Below the pieces are notes generated by a model. The model ran no database searches and was not told the DNA's origin. It saw only the letters and a program-made list of their open reading frames with translations. Shown piece by piece: positions 53,364-63,622 of a stretch of DNA of 64,000 nucleotides; position 1 is the stretch's first letter; every line of letters begins with the position of its first letter. The translations under genes and the position numbers were made by a program. The DNA is from Acidaminococcus fermentans DSM 20731 (GTDB lineage: Bacteria > Bacillota > Negativicutes > Acidaminococcales > Acidaminococcaceae), in contig NC_013740.1 in NCBI RefSeq assembly GCF_000025305.1, forward strand, positions 2,046,001 through 2,110,000. The letters run 5' to 3'.

Positions 53364-54149
53364 TCAGCCGAACCGGCCGGTGATATAAGATTCCGTCCGA
53401 GGTTCGGAAGGATTGGTGAACAGGGTTTCCGTATCGTTCATTTCCACCAGTTCACCCAGGTAGAAGAAGGCCGTTTTGTCGGAAATCCGGCTGGCCTGCT
53501 GCATGTTGTGAGTGACGATGACGATGGTGTAGTCCTTTTTCAATTCCAGGGCCAGGTCTTCGATTTTCTGGGTGGAAATGGGATCCAGGGCGGAGGTGGG
53601 TTCGTCCATGAGGATCACCGAAGGCTGGGCCGCCAGGGTCCGGGCGATGCACAGACGCTGCTGCTGCCCGCCGGAGAGCCCCAGGGCGCTTTTGTCCAGC
53701 CGGTCCTTCAGTTCGTCCCAGATGGCCGCCTGGCGCAGGCTCTTTTCCACGATGTCCGCCAGCTGGGCCTTGTTGGTGATGCCCTGGACCCGGGGCCCGT
53801 AGGCCACGTTGTCAAAAATGCTCTTGGGAAAAGGAGAAGGCTGCTGGAACACCATGCCCACCCGATACCGGAGGGCCAGAGGGTCCACTTCCTTGAAAAT
53901 ATCCTTTCCTTCGAACAGGATCTGTCCTTCCACCCGGCACCCGGATACCCAGTCGTTCATCCGGTTCAGGGTCTTGAGCAGGGTACTTTTGCCGCACCCG
54001 GAAGGCCCGATCAGGGCGGTGATTTCATTGCGTTTCACTTGCATATTGATATCCTTCAGAGCCTGATGTTTTCCGTAAAACAGGTTCAGGTGCCGGATAT
54101 CGAAGACCAGGGTTTCCGGAGAAACCGGTCCGTTTCCTTGTTCAGTCAT
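53364..54149 (-). CDS. pstB: phosphate ABC transporter ATP-binding protein
   Basis: The 261-aa ATPase has Walker [18 protein letters not shown] (the NRM continuation is typical of PstB), signature [13 protein letters not shown], Walker [16 protein letters not shown] and H-loop THNMQQ. It powers high-affinity phosphate import with PstA and PstC. It overlaps pstA by 8 bp and starts at the ATG at 54149 behind GGAGG. Confidence 0.96.
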
Positions 54150-55014
54150 CTGCAGTTCCCTCCATCTTCTTTTCCAGCCGCCAGCTGATATACCGGGCCA
54201 GTACGTTGAACAGCACCACCACTAGCATCAGGATGGCAGAGGTGACCCCGGCGATTTTCGCCGCATCCGGGCTCAGGGCTTCCGTCCGCATGACCCACAC
54301 ATGGAGAGCCAGGGTTTCCCCGGGGCGGAAAGGATTCAAAGGACAGGTGGTGGAACTCATATTCCAGTTCCCCCAGTCGATGTCCGTGGACATGCCGGCG
54401 GTGAACATCAGCGCGGCAGCTTCCCCGAAGCCCCGGCCGGCGGCCAGAATCAGGCCGGTCATGATCCGGGGCAGACAGGCCGGCAGCAGCACGTTCCAGA
54501 TGGTCTGCCATTTGGAGGCCCCCAGCCCCAGGCTGCCCAGGGTGTATTCCGGCGGCAGGTCCTTCAGGGCGTTTTCCGTCACCGACACCATAAGGGGCAG
54601 GGTCAGGATGGACACGGACAGGGCGCCGGCCATCAGGTTCCACTGGGAACCGGTCATGACGATGAACACCAGGTAGCCGAACAGGCCCACCACGATGGAC
54701 GGCAGGGAGGACAGGGTCTCCACCGCCATCCGCACCCAGTTGGTCAGCTTCCCGTCCCGGGCGTATTCCGCCAGATAGATCCCGGCGGGGATGCCCCACA
54801 GGGCACTGATCACCAGGGCCAGGAACACCAGATACAGGGTGTTGAAGAACATGTCCCGGAGGCTCAGCAGGATATCTGCCGTAAGGGCCCCCAGGCCCTG
54901 TCCCACCACATCCAGGATAAAGGCGAAGAGCAGGATGGCGGAACCGGCCGCCCCGGCTGTAAAGAGCAGGCTCATGAACCGGTCCATGGCTTTTTTCTGT
55001 GCAAGGTCTCCCAT
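54142..55014 (-). CDS. pstA: phosphate ABC transporter permease PstA
   Basis: The 290-aa inner-membrane permease has six predicted helices and the EAA-type cytoplasmic loop ([19 protein letters not shown]). [13 protein letters not shown]-like sequence ([19 protein letters not shown]) marks the PstA family. The ATG at 55014 follows AGGAGG, 3 bp after the pstC stop. It pairs with PstC, whose gene here is frameshifted. Confidence 0.95.
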
Positions 55015-55017
55015 GGC

Positions 55018-55943
55018 TCACTCCTCCTCTTTCAGCTTCAGGGGATCTTTCCCAAAAGTGTGGATGATAAAGATCAGGATAAAGGAAATCACGAACAGCA
55101 GCAGGCCCAGGGTCCACAGGGCTGCACTGTATTCCCCGCCTTCCATGGCGCCCCCCATGTCGTTGGCGATCACCGTGGTCATGGTGGAAGCCGGCATGAA
55201 CAGGGAAGTGGGGAACCGTTTCATCTGGCCGATGACCATGGCCACCGCCAGGGCTTCTCCCAGGGCACGAGGCCCAGCACCACGCCGGTGAAGATGCCCC
55301 GCTGGGCTGCCGGCAGGATCACGTTCCGGATGGTTTCCCACCGGGTGGCCCCCAGGCCATAGGAGGCATCCCTCCAGCTTTTGGGCACCGCCAGCATGGC
55401 ATCAGCGGCCATGGTGGTGATCACCGGGAAGATCATCACCGCCAGTACCAGGGCTGCGGCCAGTACCGAGAACCCGAAGGGCATGGGGAAGATTTTCCGC
55501 AGGAAGGGCACCAGCACGGTAAGCCCCACCCAGCCGTAAATGACGGAAGGGATCCCGGTGAACATTTCCACAATGGGACGGATCAGCCGCTGGACTCCGG
55601 GAGAAGCCATTTCCGACATATAAATGGCCGCCGCCAGGCTCACCGGCAGGGCAAACACCAGGGACAGGAAGCAGGTAACCAGGGAACCGCTGATGAACAT
55701 GGCGGCCCCTACCTGGCCCCCGCCCTCCATGGTGTCACTGGGCTTCCACTGGGCGGAAAACAGGAATTCGGTTATGTTGTGGCCGAAATCCCAAAAGGTG
55801 CCGCTTCCCTTCACAAGAAGGAAAGCGGCCATCAGGAAAGGCAGCAGGGCCGCTGCAATGCCGCAGGCCGTGATCACGGACTGTGACAGGGACTCTTTGC
55901 GGTGTACCTGCACCAGTTTTTTTGAAACCTTTTCGTTAATCAT
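55018..55943 (-). pseudogene. pstC: phosphate ABC transporter permease PstC, frameshifted
   Basis: The first frame (55943 to about 55270) gives 224 aa of normal PstC, ending at the EAA loop (GLGATRWETIRNVILPAAQRGIFTGVVLGL), then runs into unrelated sequence and stops at 55221. The rest of PstC (RALGEALAVAMVIGQM... HTFGKDPLKLKEEE) continues in another frame to 55018. The usual VLGLGRALGEA would be restored by four extra bases near 55268. The last two helices are lost unless the shift is a sequencing error or is bypassed. The neighbours pstS, A, B and phoU are intact. The start overlaps pstS by 8 bp. Confidence 0.85.
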
Positions 55944-56838
55944 GAGCGGTATCTTTGACCTGCATCTTGCTGCTTACACCATACCCCAGTTCTTCGATCC
56001 GTTTGCCGTAATCGGCGGACAGCAGGTAATCCAGGAAGGCTTTTACAGCCGCTTTCGGATTTTTACCGGTGTAAACATGTTCATAACCCCATACATTGTA
56101 CTTGCCGGAATAGGTGTTTTCCAGAGTGGGAGCCACGCCGTCGATGGCAACGGTGGCCACCGTGTCGTTCTTGGTCAGGTAGGGCAGGGCCACATACCCG
56201 ATGGCCCCTTTGTTCTGGGCTACGCTCTGGACCAGCAGACCGGAGTTATCGGTTTCCAGGGATTTGTTGGCGGCTTCTTCCGCACCGCCCATGGCGTATT
56301 TGCTGAACAGGGCACGGGTGCCGGAAGTCTTGGGCCGGGTCACCAGGGTGATGGGTTCATCCGGGCCGCCCACTTCTTTCCAGTTGGTGATCTTGGCGGT
56401 GAAGATGTCGGTGAGCTGCTGTTTGGTCAGGCTCTTGACTTTTTCCGCCACATCCTTGTTGACGATGGTGGCCACGGTCATGACGCAGATTTTGTGGTCC
56501 ACCAGTTTATCCGCTTTTTCCTTGGGCAGTTTGGAAGCGGCCGGCACGTCGGAGTTCCCCATATCCACGGAACCGTCGGATACCTGTTTCAGGCCCATGC
56601 CGGATCCTCCGGCGTTCAGGCTGATGCTGACTTCCTTGTGCTGCTTCTTGAAGCTTTCGGCGGCATCCTTCACCAGCGGCAGCAGAGCGGAAGAACCGGA
56701 TCCGGTGATGTTGCCGCTGACCGCAGCCGGTTTCTTGGTGTCAGCGGCTTTCTGCCCGCCGCAGCCCAGGGCTCCCATGACCATCATCCCTGCCAGGACC
56801 GTCACAGCCAGCTTTTTCCATTTGTTTTTCAAGATCAT
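55936..56838 (-). CDS. pstS: phosphate-binding lipoprotein PstS
   Basis: The 300-aa solute-binding protein has a lipoprotein signal with lipobox ALGC at Cys26 and then the PstS/PBP-like domain (ITGSGSSALLPLVKDAAESF, GSGMGLKQVSDGSVDMGNSD, TRPKTSGTRALF). It captures phosphate outside the inner membrane and hands it to PstCA. The ATG at 56838 is eight bases from GGGGAG; an ATG at 56844 is too near. Repeated TTGTAAA motifs at about 56935-56955 (plus strand) could be a weaker Pho-type control site. Confidence 0.92.
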   Translation of the reverse strand: MILKNKWKKLAVTVLAGMMVMGALGCGGQKAADTKKPAAVSGNITGSGSSALLPLVKDAAESFKKQHKEVSISLNAGGSGMGLKQVSDGSVDMGNSDVPAASKLPKEKADKLVDHKICVMTVATIVNKDVAEKVKSLTKQQLTDIFTAKITNWKEVGGPDEPITLVTRPKTSGTRALFSKYAMGGAEEAANKSLETDNSGLLVQSVAQNKGAIGYVALPYLTKNDTVATVAIDGVAPTLENTYSGKYNVWGYEHVYTGKNPKAAVKAFLDYLLSADYGKRIEELGYGVSSKMQVKDTAHD

Positions 56839-56948
56839 CTTCATCGCTCCCCTTACAGAATTTCCTTGATGACAGTATTGCTTTTGTCTATGGCTATAAG
56901 ATACCAGAGTCATGTAAAAAGTAAGGGCAGGGTTTTGTAAAGAATTGT

Positions 56949-56999
56949 AAAAAAGAGATGTGAAAAAATGATTTCTCATTTTTTCACATCTCTTTTTTT
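56949..56999. terminator. bidirectional terminator between pstS and the polyamine genes
   Basis: AAAGAGATGTGAAAAAATGA and its complement form a long stem around TTTC, flanked by A- and T-runs. It is the sister of the terminator at 20317-20363 and starts composite module C. Confidence 0.9.
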
Positions 57000-57255: not shown

Positions 57256-58470
57256 TTACCTCCCCAATCTCATCTTGAAATCTTCGTATCCGAACTTTTT
57301 CAGCACCTTTACCGAGCCGTCCTCTTCCAGCACGTCGATGTCCGGCAGAGGCATGCCGTTGAAGGTGTTGTTCTTGCAGGTGGTGTAGATGGCCATGTCT
57401 CCGAAAAGCAGCATGTCCCCCACTTCCAGGTCCCCGTCGAAGCTGTAGTCTCCGGCCACATCCCCAGACAGGCAGGTGCCGCTGCCCAGGCGCCAGGTCA
57501 CCGCCCGTTCTCCCGGTTCCCCGGCTCCGTACAGAGGGGGCCGGTAGGGCATTTCCAGCACGTCCGGCATATGGCAGGCAGCGCTGGTGTCCAGGATGGC
57601 GATCTTCACATCCCCGTTTTCCACCACATCCAGCACCCGGGTGGCCAGGTAGCCGGCATTCAGGGCACAGGCCTCTCCCGGTTCCAGGTACACGGTCACA
57701 TCCCAGGCCTTCTGGGCCCGGCGGATGCATTCTTCCAGCAGGGGGATATGGTAGCCCGGACGGGTAATGTGGTGCCCACCCCCCATGTTCACCCATTTCA
57801 TTTTGGGCAGCACATCCCCGAACTTCTCTTCCACCGCATCCAGGGTCTTTTTCAGATCATCCGCATCCTGTTCGCACAGGGTGTGGAAATGGATCCCGTC
57901 CAGGAGCTCCACCAGATCCGGAGTCATCCAGGCATCCCACTGGGCCCGGGTGGTCCCCATCCGGCTGCCGGGGGCACAGGGATCATAGATGGCGTGGCCT
58001 TCCTGGGTGGAACATTCCGGATTGATCCGGAGCCCCACGCTTTTCCCGGCCTTTTTGGCCATGGGGCCATAGGTTTTCAGCTGCCGGGGCGAATTGAACA
58101 CAATGTGATCCGCCACCTGGCAGACTTCTTCCATCTGGTCGGCCCGGTAGGCCCCGCAGAACACGTGGACTTCCTTCCCCGGCATGGCTTCCCGGCCCAG
58201 CTTCGCCTCATAGAGGCCGCTGGCTTCGGTGCCCGCCAGGTACGGTTCCAGCACCGGGTACAGGTCGTAGTTGGAAAAAGCCTTCTGGGCCAGGAGGATC
58301 CGGCAGCCCGTCCGGTCCTGTACCCCTTTCAGGATCTCCCCGTTCCGGCGGAGGGCCGCCTTGTCCAGGATGTAGCAGGGGGTGCCCAGCCGGCCGAAAG
58401 CGGCCTCCGGTGTTTTCCCCTGCAGGCCCGCAAAGGCGGGACGGTCCTCCCGCACCTTGTTCCAGTCCAT
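57256..58470 (-). CDS. nspC: carboxynorspermidine / carboxyspermidine decarboxylase
   Basis: This 404-aa PLP enzyme of the alanine-racemase-fold group decarboxylates carboxy(nor)spermidine, the last step of the aspartate-semialdehyde route to (nor)spermidine. Family features include LLAQKAFSNYDLYPVL (PLP Lys), SGLYEAKLGRE, GIHFHTLCEQDADDL, NMGGGHHITRPGY and LEPGEACALNAGYL. The start overlaps the stop of the dehydrogenase gene by one base (TAATG), showing coupling. It is the last gene of the polyamine block and ends before repeat C. Confidence 0.93.
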   Translation of the reverse strand: MDWNKVREDRPAFAGLQGKTPEAAFGRLGTPCYILDKAALRRNGEILKGVQDRTGCRILLAQKAFSNYDLYPVLEPYLAGTEASGLYEAKLGREAMPGKEVHVFCGAYRADQMEEVCQVADHIVFNSPRQLKTYGPMAKKAGKSVGLRINPECSTQEGHAIYDPCAPGSRMGTTRAQWDAWMTPDLVELLDGIHFHTLCEQDADDLKKTLDAVEEKFGDVLPKMKWVNMGGGHHITRPGYHIPLLEECIRRAQKAWDVTVYLEPGEACALNAGYLATRVLDVVENGDVKIAILDTSAACHMPDVLEMPYRPPLYGAGEPGERAVTWRLGSGTCLSGDVAGDYSFDGDLEVGDMLLFGDMAIYTTCKNNTFNGMPLPDIDVLEEDGSVKVLKKFGYEDFKMRLGR

Positions 58471-59729
58471 TATTTCACCAGCGCCGGATCATGGGATTCG
58501 CTCCGGGGCAGGCCGTGCTTGTCCAGGGCATCCAGGAAGGGATCCGGATCGAATTCTTCCACCGTATGGACGCCGGGAGTGGTCCATTTGCCGGTGAGCA
58601 GCATCAGGGCACCGCACATGGCCGGTACGCCGGTGGTGTAGCTGATGGCCTGGCTGCCCACTTCCCGGTAGCAGGCCTGGTGGTCGCACACGTTGTAGAT
58701 GTAATAGGTCTTGTCCTTCCCGTCCTTCTTCCCGGTGAAGATGCAGCCGATGTTGGTCTTGCCCTTGGTCCGGGGACCCAGGCTGGCGGGATCCGGCAGC
58801 AGGGCCTTGAGGAATTTGATGGGAACGATTTCGTGGCCTTCAAAGTTGATGGGGGTAGTGGACAGCATGCCCACATCCTCCAGGCAGCGCATATGGTCCA
58901 GGTAGCTCTGGCCGAAGGTCATGAAGAACCGGATCCGTTTCACCCCGGGGATGTTCTTGGCCAGGCTTTCGATTTCTTCGTGGTGGAGCAGGTACATATC
59001 CTTTTCGCCCACCTGGTCGAAATCATATTCCCGTTTGATGCTCATAGCCGGGATTTCCACCCAGTGGCCGTTTTCCCAGTAGCTGCCAGGGGCGGACACT
59101 TCCCGCAGGTTCACTTCCGGGTTGAAGTTGGTGGCAAAGGCATACCCATGGTCCCCGCCGTTGCAGTCCAGGATGTCGATGGTGTCGATGGTGTCGAATT
59201 CATGCTTCTGGGCATAGGCGCAGTAAGCCTGGGTCACCCCGGGATCGAACCCGCAGCCCAGCAGGGCGGTGAGGCCGGCTTTTTCGAATTTTTCCTTGTA
59301 GGCCCACTGCCAGCTGTAATCGAAGTAGGCGGAGAACCCTTCTTCCTTGCAGCGTTTTTCGTAGATGGCCCTCCATTGGGGATCATCGGTGTCTTCCGGT
59401 TCGTAGTTGGCGGTATCCATGTAGTTCACCCCGCAGGCCAGGCAGGCGTCCATGATGGTCAGATCCTGGTAGGGCAGGGCGATGTTCATCACCAGATCCG
59501 GTTTGTAGCTTTTGATGAGGGCGATCACCTGATCCACCTGGTCCGCATCCACCTGGGCAGTGGTGACTTTGGTGGCGGTTTTTCCCTTCAGTTTTTCCGC
59601 CAGGGCATCGCATTTGGATTTGGTCCGGCTGGCAATGCACAGTTCGGTGAACACATCGCTGACCTGACAGCATTTCTGGATGGCCACGGAAGCAACCCCG
59701 CCGCAGCCGATAACAAGGACTCTGCTCAT
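58470..59729 (-). CDS. carboxynorspermidine / carboxyspermidine synthase (saccharopine-dehydrogenase family)
   Basis: The 419-aa NADPH-dependent enzyme condenses a diamine (putrescine or diaminopropane) with aspartate semialdehyde. It has the Rossmann start VLVIGCGGVASVAIQKC and the LYS1-type blocks GVNYMDTANYEPEDTD and GCGFDPGVTQAYCAYA. Coupling to nspC identifies it as the carboxy(nor)spermidine synthase rather than a lysine-pathway saccharopine dehydrogenase. The ATG at 59729 follows GGAGG. A 221-bp gap with repeat F separates it from speB, so a separate promoter is possible. Confidence 0.9.
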   Translation of the reverse strand: MSRVLVIGCGGVASVAIQKCCQVSDVFTELCIASRTKSKCDALAEKLKGKTATKVTTAQVDADQVDQVIALIKSYKPDLVMNIALPYQDLTIMDACLACGVNYMDTANYEPEDTDDPQWRAIYEKRCKEEGFSAYFDYSWQWAYKEKFEKAGLTALLGCGFDPGVTQAYCAYAQKHEFDTIDTIDILDCNGGDHGYAFATNFNPEVNLREVSAPGSYWENGHWVEIPAMSIKREYDFDQVGEKDMYLLHHEEIESLAKNIPGVKRIRFFMTFGQSYLDHMRCLEDVGMLSTTPINFEGHEIVPIKFLKALLPDPASLGPRTKGKTNIGCIFTGKKDGKDKTYYIYNVCDHQACYREVGSQAISYTTGVPAMCGALMLLTGKWTTPGVHTVEEFDPDPFLDALDKHGLPRSESHDPALVK

Positions 59730-59950: not shown

Positions 59951-60805
59951 TTACAACAGCGCCAGCAGCAGTTCCCGGACCACTTTGCAGGCCACGGCGG
60001 TGGAGGCGCCGCTGGCATCCAGCATGGGTGCCAGTTCGTTCACGTCGGCGGCCACCACATTTGTCCGGGCCACCAGCCGCAGGGCGTTCAGCAGCGCCAT
60101 GAAGGTGACGCCCCCGGCTTCCGGGGTACCGGTCCCCGGGAACACCGAAGGATCCAGGCAGTCCAGGTCGATGGTGAAGTACACCGGAACCTGACTCTTT
60201 TCCAGATTCCGGACCAGCTGTTCCAGCCCTCCGAAGCTGAAGGGATGCAGGTCCGTGTGCTGCCGGGCGAACTGCCATTCCGCCTTTTCCCCGCTGCGGA
60301 TGCAGAACTGATGGATCTTTCCGTCCCCGATCAGGTCGTGGCACCGGCGGATTACGCAGGCATGGCTCAGTTTGACCCCCAGGTAATCGTCCCGCAGGTC
60401 CGTGTGGGCATCGAAGTGGATGATCTGGACATCCGGGTACTTTTTCAGCACTGCCCGGAAAGCCCCCAGGGTCACCAGGTGCTCGCCCCCCACCATGAAA
60501 GGCAGTTTCCCGTCCTGGAGGATGGTGGCCGTCCGTTCCTCAATGTCCTGGAGGGCCATTTCCGAACTGCCGAAGCACAGTTCCAGATCCCCGCTGTCAA
60601 AAACGGCGTACTCTTCCAGATCCTTGTCCTGGTAGGGGCTGTAAGTTTCCAGCCCGAAGCTTTCGTGGCGGATGGCAGAAGACCCGAACCGGGTCCCGGG
60701 CCGGAAGCTGGTGGTGGAATCAAAGGGCGCCCCGAACAGGACGATTTTGGCGTCCTCATAGGGAGCATCACAGGCCAGGAAGGTTTCCACGTTATTTTTC
60801 AGCAT
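59951..60805 (-). CDS. speB: agmatinase
   Basis: The 284-aa ureohydrolase splits agmatine to putrescine and urea. Manganese ligands appear in VGGEHLVTLGAF, HFDAHTDLRDDYLG and FTIDLDCLDPSVFPG. GTGTPEAGGVTF follows, typical of agmatinases. The ATG at 60805 overlaps speE by 14 bp and follows AAGGG. The order speA-speE-speB places it in an arginine-to-putrescine route. An arginase or guanidinobutyrase role is less likely given speA. Confidence 0.92.
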   Translation of the reverse strand: MLKNNVETFLACDAPYEDAKIVLFGAPFDSTTSFRPGTRFGSSAIRHESFGLETYSPYQDKDLEEYAVFDSGDLELCFGSSEMALQDIEERTATILQDGKLPFMVGGEHLVTLGAFRAVLKKYPDVQIIHFDAHTDLRDDYLGVKLSHACVIRRCHDLIGDGKIHQFCIRSGEKAEWQFARQHTDLHPFSFGGLEQLVRNLEKSQVPVYFTIDLDCLDPSVFPGTGTPEAGGVTFMALLNALRLVARTNVVAADVNELAPMLDASGASTAVACKVVRELLLALL

Positions 60806-61673
60806 TTTGGCACCCTTCTTCCGTTTCCACTTCCTTCAGCATCTCCTCCAGGAAGGCCGGCAGCCAGAAGGCTCCCACATGGAGCCGGGTGGTGTAGTAC
60901 CGGGTGTGCATGTTCAGGGCTTCCCAGGCCGGAGCATCCAGGTCGTTGATGGGATGGTACTTTTTGCTGGCGAAGCCGAAGGTCCAGTAGCCCGCCGCAT
61001 AGGTGGGGATATGGGCCTGGTACACCTTGCTGATGGGGAAGGTACTGACGATCCGCTGGTGGCTCCGCTGCATGGCGATGGCGTCTTCCTTGTAGAAGGG
61101 GCTCCCCTGCTGGTTCACCATGATCCCGTCTTCCCGGAGGGCGTTGTAGCAGCTGCCGTAGAATTCCCGGGTAAAGAACCCTTCGGAAGGACCGAAAGGA
61201 TCCACGGAATCCACAATGATCAGGTCATAGGAATTTTCCCGGTGGCGGATGAATTTCAGGGCATTTTCAAAATAGATGTGCACCCGCCGGTCATCCATCC
61301 GGCAGGCGTTCCCGGGCAGATAGTTCCGGCAGGCTTCCACCACCATGGGGTCCATTTCCACCAGATCGATTTTCTCCACCCGGTCGTACCGGGTCAGTTC
61401 CCGGACCACGCCCCCGTCCCCGGCGCCGATCACCAGGATGTCCTTGATGCCCTTGTGGACCGCCATGGGTACATGGGTCATCATTTCGTCGTAAATGAAT
61501 TCGTCCCGTTCCGTCAGCATCACATTGCCGTCCAGTGTCAGGACCCGGCCGAATTCCGGCGTTTCGAAAATATCGATCCGCTGGAAGTCACTCTGTTTGG
61601 AGAACAGGTGACGGTTCACCCGGAGGCTGTGTTTCACATCCGGTGTATGGAATTCGCTGAACCACATTTCCAT
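60792..61673 (-). CDS. speE: spermidine synthase (polyamine aminopropyltransferase)
   Basis: The 293-aa protein has the aminopropyltransferase core: LTERDEFIYDEMMTHVPM, VIGAGDGGVVREL at 82-94 (decarboxylated-AdoMet loop), VEMDPMVVEACRNYLP, and YDLIIVDSVDPFGP with the catalytic Asp. It would transfer an aminopropyl group to putrescine. The ATG at 61673 sits nine bases from AGGGGG. It needs decarboxylated AdoMet from SpeD, which is not in the window. The dehydrogenase/nspC pair next door is a second route to spermidine-like products. Confidence 0.92.
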   Translation of the reverse strand: MEMWFSEFHTPDVKHSLRVNRHLFSKQSDFQRIDIFETPEFGRVLTLDGNVMLTERDEFIYDEMMTHVPMAVHKGIKDILVIGAGDGGVVRELTRYDRVEKIDLVEMDPMVVEACRNYLPGNACRMDDRRVHIYFENALKFIRHRENSYDLIIVDSVDPFGPSEGFFTREFYGSCYNALREDGIMVNQQGSPFYKEDAIAMQRSHQRIVSTFPISKVYQAHIPTYAAGYWTFGFASKKYHPINDLDAPAWEALNMHTRYYTTRLHVGAFWLPAFLEEMLKEVETEEGCQNAEK

Positions 61674-61689
61674 TGGTTGTATCCCCCTC

Positions 61690-63147
61690 TTATGCCAGTA
61701 CATTCAGGTGCTTCAGTTCCGGATCTTCTGAACCGGTCATGCTGCAGCCCTTTTCTTTGGCGTACCGGATATGTTCCAGTACGGTTTTGGTGATTTTTTC
61801 GCCCGGTGCCAGCAGCGGGATCCCCGGCGGATAGCACATGACGAATTCGCTGCACACCCGGCCTTCGCACTGCTCCAGGGGCAGGCTGATCTTGTCCGCA
61901 TAGAAGGCTTCCTGGGGACTGGTGACCACCACCGGTTCCACATATTCCTGGGTAAGCATGCCGGTGGGATCCTTCTGGTACCGGCGGCGGATTTCCGCCA
62001 GGGCGCTGACCAGCCGTTCCAGATCCTGGATCCGGTCCCCCATGGACAGGTAGGCCAGGATGTTGCCGATATCCCCGAACTCGATCTGGATGTCGTAGTC
62101 ATCCCGGAGGATGTCGTACACTTCGATGCCGGCCAGGCCGATGTCCAGGGTGTGGATGCTCAGTTTTGTGTTGTCGAAATCAAAGACGGAATCCCCGTTC
62201 ATCAGTTCCCGGCCGAAGGCGTAGTAGCCCCCGATGTTGTTGATTTCCTGCCGGGCGTATTCCGCCATATCCACCACTTTGTGGAAGATCTCCCGGCCGT
62301 GGAGGGCCAGCCGCCGGCGGCTGATGTCCAGGCTGGACATCAGCAGGTAGCTGCCGGAGGTGGTCTGGGTCAGGTTGATGATCTGCCGCACATACCCGGC
62401 GTGGACCTTGGGCCCGGTGAGCAGGAAGCTGGACTGGGTCAGGCTGCCCCCGCTTTTGTGCATGGAGATGGCGGCCATGTCGGCGCCGGCGGCCATGGCG
62501 GATACGGGCAGGCCGCTGCCGAAGTAGAAGTGGGTGCCGTGGGCTTCATCCGCCAGGCACAGCATCCCCGCGTCATGGGCCATTTTCACAATGGCCCGGA
62601 GATCGCTGCACACCCCGTAATAGGTGGGGTTGTTCACCACCACCGCCACCGCGTCCGGATTTTCCCGGATGGCCTTGGCCACTGCATCCCGTTTCATCCC
62701 CAGGCTGATTCCCAGCCGCTTGTCCACATCCGGGTTCACGTACACCGGGATGGCCCCGCAGAGCACCAGGGCGTTGATCATGCTTTTGTGGACATTCCGG
62801 GGCAGGATGATCTTGTCCCCCCGTTTGCAGGCGGACAGGATCATGGACTGGACAGCGCTGGTGGTCCCCCCCACCATCAGGAAAGCCTGGCTGGCCCCAA
62901 AGGCGTCGGCGGCCAGCTGTTCCGCCTCCCGGATCACCGACACCGGATGGCACAGGTTGTCCAGGGGCTTCATGCTGTTTACATCCACCCCCACGCATTT
63001 TTCTCCCAGAAAATCCGTCAGTTCCGGATTTCCCCGGCCCCGTTTGTGGCCGGGCACGTCAAAGGGCACCACCCGCATCTTCCGGAACCGTTCCAGGGCC
63101 TCATAGATGGGGGCCCGATCCTGCTTCAACCGATATTGTTTTTCCAA
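61690..63147 (-). CDS. speA: Orn/Lys/Arg decarboxylase, probably arginine decarboxylase
   Basis: The 485-aa fold-type I PLP enzyme matches the short Bacillus SpeA type. The PLP lysine is K231 in SMHKSGGSLTQSS, with D200-EAH before it and GGTTSAVQSM for phosphate binding. Arginine is the likely substrate because agmatinase follows. Lysine or ornithine cannot be excluded, and the product cadaverine would matter for the Negativicute cell wall. The TTG start at 63147 is favoured since GGAGG lies eight bases upstream; the frame runs on to 63237 across the leader terminator and is not used there. It heads speA-speE-speB and is preceded by a structured leader. Confidence 0.88.
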   Translation of the reverse strand: MEKQYRLKQDRAPIYEALERFRKMRVVPFDVPGHKRGRGNPELTDFLGEKCVGVDVNSMKPLDNLCHPVSVIREAEQLAADAFGASQAFLMVGGTTSAVQSMILSACKRGDKIILPRNVHKSMINALVLCGAIPVYVNPDVDKRLGISLGMKRDAVAKAIRENPDAVAVVVNNPTYYGVCSDLRAIVKMAHDAGMLCLADEAHGTHFYFGSGLPVSAMAAGADMAAISMHKSGGSLTQSSFLLTGPKVHAGYVRQIINLTQTTSGSYLLMSSLDISRRRLALHGREIFHKVVDMAEYARQEINNIGGYYAFGRELMNGDSVFDFDNTKLSIHTLDIGLAGIEVYDILRDDYDIQIEFGDIGNILAYLSMGDRIQDLERLVSALAEIRRRYQKDPTGMLTQEYVEPVVVTSPQEAFYADKISLPLEQCEGRVCSEFVMCYPPGIPLLAPGEKITKTVLEHIRYAKEKGCSMTGSEDPELKHLNVLA

Positions 63148-63189: not shown

Positions 63190-63224
63190 AAAAAAAACGC
63201 AAGCTGCCTCTTTGCAGCTTGCGT
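63190..63224 (-). terminator. leader terminator upstream of speA
   Basis: ACGCAAGCTGC pairs with GCAGCTTGCGT around AAAGAG, followed by eight T residues on the minus strand. It stands 43 bp before the speA start, so full expression requires read-through or antitermination. Confidence 0.85.
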
Positions 63225-63505
63225 AATAAGGTCTCATCCGGTATGGCGGTTTGCTTCTTTTCAGGGAATCTCCCCGTTACGAACGACTCTTATTGACCGT
63301 TTCACAAGTCTGCGCACAGACGCATTGCGGTTATGAAGTAACCAACTTATAAAAGTTGAACCCACAGGTTCAATCAATAAGGCTGCAAACCAGTTGCCGC
63401 CAGTTCGGCAGTGGACCCGGCTGTCCGTATGGCCTTGACCGGACAGCCGTCCCGAAAGACGTAATCTTGTCCAGTGGTCCGATGAAGGTTTTGAAAACAC
63501 GTGAC
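63225..63505 (-). ncRNA. structured 5' leader of speA, candidate riboswitch or attenuator
   Basis: On the minus strand this 280-nt region folds into many perfect helices: CGGCTGTCCG with CGGACAGCCG, TGCCG with CGGCA, TTGAACC with GGTTCAA, GGTTA with TAACC, and GTCTG with CAGAC. Two long-range pairs, TTATTGA with TCAATAA and GGTTTGC with GCAAACC, close multi-helix junctions. A terminator follows. An arginine-rich reading frame (RRLVKRSIRVVRNGEIP) runs through its last third. It lacks the T-box sequence and the lysine-riboswitch core. The class is unknown to me. Confidence 0.65.
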
Positions 63506-63622
63506 CGAATTTTCAAATCGTAAAAATTTTAACATACCCCCACCCCGTTGTCAATTTCATCTTGTCTTTCTCCCTTCCCCCGTGCTACCATGGGGACAGA
63601 CTTTTTGAAGGGAGCTGGTTGG
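63506..63622. other. divergent promoter region between speA leader and membrane-protein gene
   Basis: An A+T-rich stretch (TTTTGAAAACAC to TAAAAATTTTAACATACC) on the left should hold the speA promoter. No repeat or further gene is visible. Confidence 0.4.

Follow-up and report, generated by a model that had tools for sequence, protein, structure and literature searches.

The only polyamine riboswitch proven so far is a spermidine-binding variant of the SAM-I riboswitch with 13 reported representatives (Salvail et al. 2023, PMC10853860). It is an OFF switch that uses a terminator and an antiterminator and lies before ldcC, speE, and speB, and its authors stated that further classes are surely still to be discovered (PMC10853860). 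The leader described here lies in a stretch of 64,000 nucleotides from Acidaminococcus fermentans DSM 20731 (hereafter the window). It shares with the SAM-I variant the association with polyamine genes, but its fold is unrelated and no SAM-I match was obtained at E values up to 10. Lysine, T-box, guanidine, SAM, and cobalamin RNAs also form large 5' leaders with terminators, but the Rfam scan, carried to E values of 10, matched none of them, as a preliminary description made from the sequence alone had judged. Identity with a known riboswitch or T-box was thus rejected, since only RF02440 (SpF59_sRNA or ldcC RNA) reached its cut-off. This entry of Rfam 15 covers 54 positions, is typed as sRNA, and carries no stated function.

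The Rfam search of the minus strand, which the preliminary description had proposed, placed RF02440 at 63405-63480 with 62 bits against a gathering cut-off of 37.2. The match comprises P1, P1a, P2, and the invariant core AAGGCCAUACGGACAGCCGGGUC, so that P1/P1a and the core sequence are common to both RNAs. The leader had been called unclassified; since the match formally assigns it to a known RNA family, this designation was abandoned. The downstream decarboxylase implied by the alias ldcC is also found in the window as a speA/ldcC-type gene. The RF02440 model has no 3' half and stops where the bulk of the structure starts, whereas conservation in the aligned leaders runs ~150 nt past its end. 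We built a model of 197 positions (R1) without the sequences of the subclade to which the window belongs; it matched 63265-63480 on the minus strand with 131.2 bits (E 1.4e-36), and the 5' module P1-P8 is thereby present in the window (131 bits). Comparison of more than 100 related leaders indicated a full RNA of ~200-290 nt that contains nine helices or more, together with a covarying helix that links both ends. Judged from these aligned leaders, RF02440 is a fragment of about a quarter of the real RNA, and the window leader represents an extended ldcC RNA that consists of RF02440 and about 150-200 further nt. The extended RNA is ~4 times longer than the Rfam model, from which its most widespread part, the P9 module, is missing. 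The family label was already known; the architecture, the gene set, and the candidate switch were worked out here by sequence comparison. The full RNA is not described in the literature searched (full text and motif surveys, with the 224-motif survey of 2017 outside this scope). The alias 'ldcC RNA' implies that someone named the RNA, and an earlier publication is possible.

Promoter and terminator positions define a structured leader transcript of about 63520-63190 on the minus strand. A strong promoter (TTGACA-17-TAAAAT with TG ahead of the -10 element, 11 of 12 matches) occupies 63554-63526, and the aligned promoter is also present in the four nearest relatives. Because this promoter puts the transcription start near 63520, the leader is ~330 nt long, and the earlier figure of about 280 nt was too short; the coordinates and strand given with it were correct. 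Sequence inspection located an intrinsic terminator (ACGCAAGCTGC-6-GCAGCTTGCGT followed by U8) at 63190-63224 (minus strand), with a stem of 11 bp, 7 of them GC, at 63224-63197 and a U-tract that reaches 63190. The speA gene starts with TTG at 63147, preceded by GGAGGG, which confirms the reported distance of 43 bp between terminator and gene. The 316-nt segment folded with -114.5 kcal/mol, compared with -91.3 +/- 5.0 kcal/mol for shuffled sequences (z -4.6; 0 of 100 shuffles). A 79-aa ORF at 63261-63500 was considered as a leader peptide and rejected as a by-product of frame, with no start codon conserved in the alignment. The operon that follows has the order speA-speE-speB-CANSDH-nspC. NCBIfam identified its first gene as a speA/ldcC-type Orn/Lys/Arg decarboxylase (61690-63147, minus strand), followed by spermidine synthase (speE, 60792-61703), agmatinase (speB, 59951-60805), carboxynorspermidine synthase (CANSDH, 58470-59729), and carboxynorspermidine decarboxylase (nspC, 57256-58470). 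The proposal of a structured leader that acts in cis and carries a terminator ahead of polyamine genes was thus borne out. Further downstream, at 54142-56979 on the minus strand, the translations alone suggest phosphate ABC transporter-like ORFs (a binding protein and two permeases).

The structure consists of P1, P1a, P2-P8, P9, and P9b and was counted on 77 sequences. RNAalifold on the raw alignment recovered the helices in part; the structure was set by hand before counting, and the count therefore leans towards it. We checked this bias by sliding controls and energy permutations. In the count, 92.7% of the cells were paired and 30 of the 57 pairs were changed on both sides, whereas only 32-46% of the cells were paired when the partners were slid by 1-3 columns. 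The covariation score was 0.191 against 0.099 for shuffles, none of which (0 of 500) scored as high. In the window, where all helices are on the minus strand, P1 (GGACC/GGTCC) pairs 63480-63476 with 63417-63413, and its outer pair occurs as G-C, U-A, C-G, or A-U. Inside P1 lie P1a (63475-63468 with 63445-63438), with both-side changes in all five pairs, and P2 (GGC/GCC, 63434-63432 with 63421-63419), the middle pair of which is C-G in place of G-C in a divergent clade. P3 is a hairpin (GGCGGCA/TGCAGCC, 63381-63401) with both-side changes in 5/5 pairs. A multibranch region is closed by P4 (TTATTGA/TCAATAA, 63380-63374 with 63296-63290), a pairing that had been noticed in the window and proved genuine, with ~95-98% paired cells across the family. 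It encloses the hairpin P5 (TTGAACC/GGTTCAA, 63356-63373; both-side changes in 4/5 pairs) and the nearly invariant P6 (TTTATAAGT/ACTTGTGAA, 63353-63345 with 63309-63301). P7 (63343-63339 with 63333-63329; 3/5 pairs compensatory) and P8 (63324-63321 with 63314-63311; variable, still pairing) are inside P6. Compensatory changes were clear in P1a, P3, P5, P7, and P8; P4, P6, and P9 hardly vary and are supported by conservation more than by covariation. The covariation test in homologous leaders that had been suggested thus backed most helices. A pseudoknot between CGG of the core and CCG of TGCCG, invariant in the family, is possible.

The helix linking both ends is formed by the sequence that precedes P1 and by the tail that surrounds and follows GACTC. 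In 62 non-redundant loci, cognate strands paired with -13.5 kcal/mol and swapped strands with -10.6 kcal/mol (0/20000 permutations). The tail after GACTC alone still gave 0/20000, and a control taken 30-51 nt further along was not significant (1423/20000). Alignment also placed a 5' hairpin, P0 (TTTGAAAA..TTTTCAAA), at 63490-63517 (minus strand); its loop in the wider family carries the 5' strand of this closing helix, a strand that is lost in the window.

In samples of 250 genomes from the class and 398 from the phylum, RF02440 matched 21 and 18, respectively; R1 matched 25 of the same 398. An exact 20-mer of the core occurred in at least 118 stretches, with Paenibacillus, Bacillus, Neobacillus, Clostridia, Negativicutes, and one Synergistota contig among the matches listed. 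The RF02440 RNA is single-copy in the window genome, and two ~99% complete genomes of the same genus (G048 and G114) had no match to RF02440 or to the extended model. A copy at 2204050-2204200 of NZ_CP054613.1, a 2.7-Mb replicon of Paenibacillus cellulosilyticus listed as a plasmid, has no annotated feature underneath. The downstream ORFs of 124 readable sampled loci were classed by clustering, and representatives were identified with NCBIfam. This assigned 46 ORFs to speA/ldcC, 31 to speD, 29 to carboxynorspermidine synthase, and 17 to potA; the remaining one was left unclassified by the clustering and resembles out-of-frame speD. All 123 classifiable genes downstream of the sampled loci are thus polyamine genes. 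The divergent copies found only by R1 that were inspected also precede speA or speD.

Of 142 loci, 123 had a detectable terminator, and complementarity between its 5' arm and the P8/P6 3' strand recurs among them. In the window this strand (GCAGaCUUGUG, 63303-63313, minus strand) is complementary, with one bulge, to the 5' arm of the window terminator (63214-63223), and we propose it as the antiterminator strand; in the window, GCAG-a-CUUGUG pairs with CGCAAGCUGC by 10 bp and one bulge. Cognate duplexes of antiterminator strand and terminator arm had -10.7 kcal/mol compared with -9.1 kcal/mol for swapped ones (0/20000, also when permuted within gene classes), and the values in a strict non-redundant set (n = 43) were -11.5 and -9.2 kcal/mol (0/20000). 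Individual compensations were seen in L152 (UGCUUG with CAAGCA), L097, L049, and L082. Cognate and swapped duplexes did not differ within the potA class alone or within the carboxynorspermidine-synthase class alone, and most of the support is therefore due to the speA and speD classes and to differences between classes. The site was the best partner of the terminator arm in 49 of 85 loci. The preliminary description had favored a different switching helix, TGGCGG with CCGCCA. This helix exists in the window sequence, but CCGCCA is replaced by CCGAAA in 3/3 nearest relatives; it was rejected because the partner is not conserved, and the comparison favors the P6/P8 3' strand with the terminator arm. 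Calculated for the window without ligand or tertiary energy, the family fold with terminator had -105.7 against -123.8 for the thermodynamic minimum, which is a different structure. When the terminator arm has just been made, the antiterminator fold (-98.5) is favored over the family fold (-86.7); the unconstrained minimum at this stage (-104.8) contains neither.

Sequence comparison establishes a shared RNA with its helices, its association with polyamine genes, and covariation between antiterminator and terminator. An aptamer-like conserved domain, an expression platform, and a coherent gene set, by which a riboswitch is recognized, are all found. We consider it probable that the RNA is a transcription-terminating OFF switch, which would act when polyamines are abundant, and a candidate riboswitch for spermidine or a close polyamine. 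When the P4-P6-P8 domain is stable, the 3' strand of P8/P6 would be occupied, the terminator would form, and the polyamine operon would be off. When the domain is open, this strand would pair with the 5' arm of the terminator, and transcription would continue. The OFF direction follows from the antiterminator strand also being used inside the folded domain, so that a stabilized domain would free the terminator. The stabilizing signal would most likely be spermidine or a close end-product polyamine acting directly on the RNA, since two synthesis routes and uptake have only that product in common. The idea of a polyamine-type sensor in the preliminary description is supported as a probable one.

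The 3' part of the RNA, the P9 module (GAGTAGTAAAAGTA..TTGCTATATAGACTC), was covered by a model of 55 positions (R2). R2 and R1 matched the same 25 of the 398 genomes; the window scored 32 bits, from the flank only, and the other 24 scored at least 47.9 bits. The P9 module is thus absent from the window. The converse was found in compact forms from other lineages (L196-L199, at 1600-1707 in L196 and 1570-1678 in L198), all upstream of speD or speA. In these the Rfam core is missing, as is most of the 5' module, and ACTTGTGAA..TCAATAAGAGTAGTAAAAGTA..TTGCTATATAGACTC is retained. The stand-alone copies of the 3' module had no Rfam match. Compact 3'-only copies together with the 5'-only copy of the window, which has the module known to Rfam, indicate two separable modules. 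It is a serious possibility, judged from these leaders, that they represent a large two-module class of polyamine riboswitches that is unrelated in fold to the SAM-I-derived switch and controls both the making and the import of polyamines across Bacillota. A lineage may keep either module alone, the 3' one in the compact copies L196-L199 and the 5' one in the window copy, which has its own core-masking hairpin. The 3' module is also missing, shortened, or degenerate in L030, L077, L137, and L006, yet terminators or polyamine genes follow; L030 is additionally without the antiterminator strand.

The window and three relatives (L013-L015) form a subclade in which the near-universal P9 module is replaced, as seen in the alignment and with R2, by a specific 3' part (CGTTCGTAACG, GGGGA..TCCC, and GCAAACCG; 63241-63289, minus strand). 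GAGTC of the closing helix is lost together with P9 in all four, whereas L002 of the same genus retains both. Instead of GAGTC/GACTC, CGRTTTG at the transcript start could pair with CAAACCG (7/7 in L013 and 6/7 in the window; four sequences only). GCAAACCG was gained in all four leaders and has two potential partners, the P3 loop and the transcript start. GGTTTGC/GCAAACC, the second long-range pairing of the preliminary description, is indeed present in the window and its three nearest relatives but is unproven, the four copies being identical and without covariation. In the sister species L002, GGTTTGC is present but its partner GCAAACC is not. As a family feature the pairing was rejected, because it is seen in four near-identical sequences only and clashes with the covarying P3. 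In the window, moreover, 63449-63440 and 63427-63418 can form a perfect hairpin of 10 bp in which the 3' strand of P1a would mask the otherwise invariant core (CGGCTGTCCG with CGGACAGCCG, 10/10). This complementarity is confined to the subclade; the hairpin is shorter in L013-L015, and GCTGTCCG is common to all four. The window copy, being without P9, may respond differently from canonical members. It could even be decaying or rewired, with speA constitutive or controlled by the masking hairpin and GGTTTGC/GCAAACC; besides the loss of P9 in a subclade whose congener retains it and the masking hairpin, the lack of a normal P9 in L006 and L077 points in this direction. We nevertheless regard decay or rewiring as unlikely, because the near-identity of 63401-63284 between two subclades of the genus argues for continued selection and both promoter and terminator are retained. 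We infer that the window copy continues to switch.

The same RNA and switch might respond to another ligand of the pathway, such as decarboxylated SAM, MTA, agmatine, cadaverine, arginine, or lysine. A decarboxylase is the commonest first gene (46/124) and speD the next (31), and MTA was seriously considered for the SAM-I-type variant until spermidine was shown (PMC10853860). From what is known of the pathway, however, carboxynorspermidine synthase (29 loci) and the importer potA (17) handle neither decarboxylated SAM nor MTA, and speD handles neither agmatine nor lysine. Spermidine-like products alone connect all four gene classes, which makes one of these other ligands rather improbable. That a protein reads the leader, as an attenuator or antiterminator, is very unlikely. 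RNA-binding proteins also use leaders with antiterminator and terminator, but here the near-invariant positions that are unpaired or in loops number in the dozens over ~200 nt, the fold is much larger than usual protein-binding leaders, the carriers (Bacilli, Clostridia, Negativicutes, and one Synergistota contig) have no evident common regulator, and the alignment conserves no leader-peptide start codon. That the terminated product acts elsewhere as a trans-acting small RNA, as the name SpF59 sRNA and the sRNA type of RF02440 imply and as a terminator releasing a discrete ~330-nt RNA would allow, is highly improbable given the position immediately upstream of co-directional polyamine genes and the covariation of the end-to-end helix and the antiterminator, which are cis features.

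The candidate spermidine-type OFF switch differs from the SAM-I variant also in its distribution. The extended ldcC RNA, with more than 100 loci against 13 representatives, is far more widespread and in our sample accompanies polyamine genes exclusively. Its specific predicted antiterminator is open to a simple termination assay, and the extended RNA would show that the Rfam entry is a fragment from which the best conserved part is missing. Gut bacteria, in which polyamine output matters to the host, contribute many of the loci.
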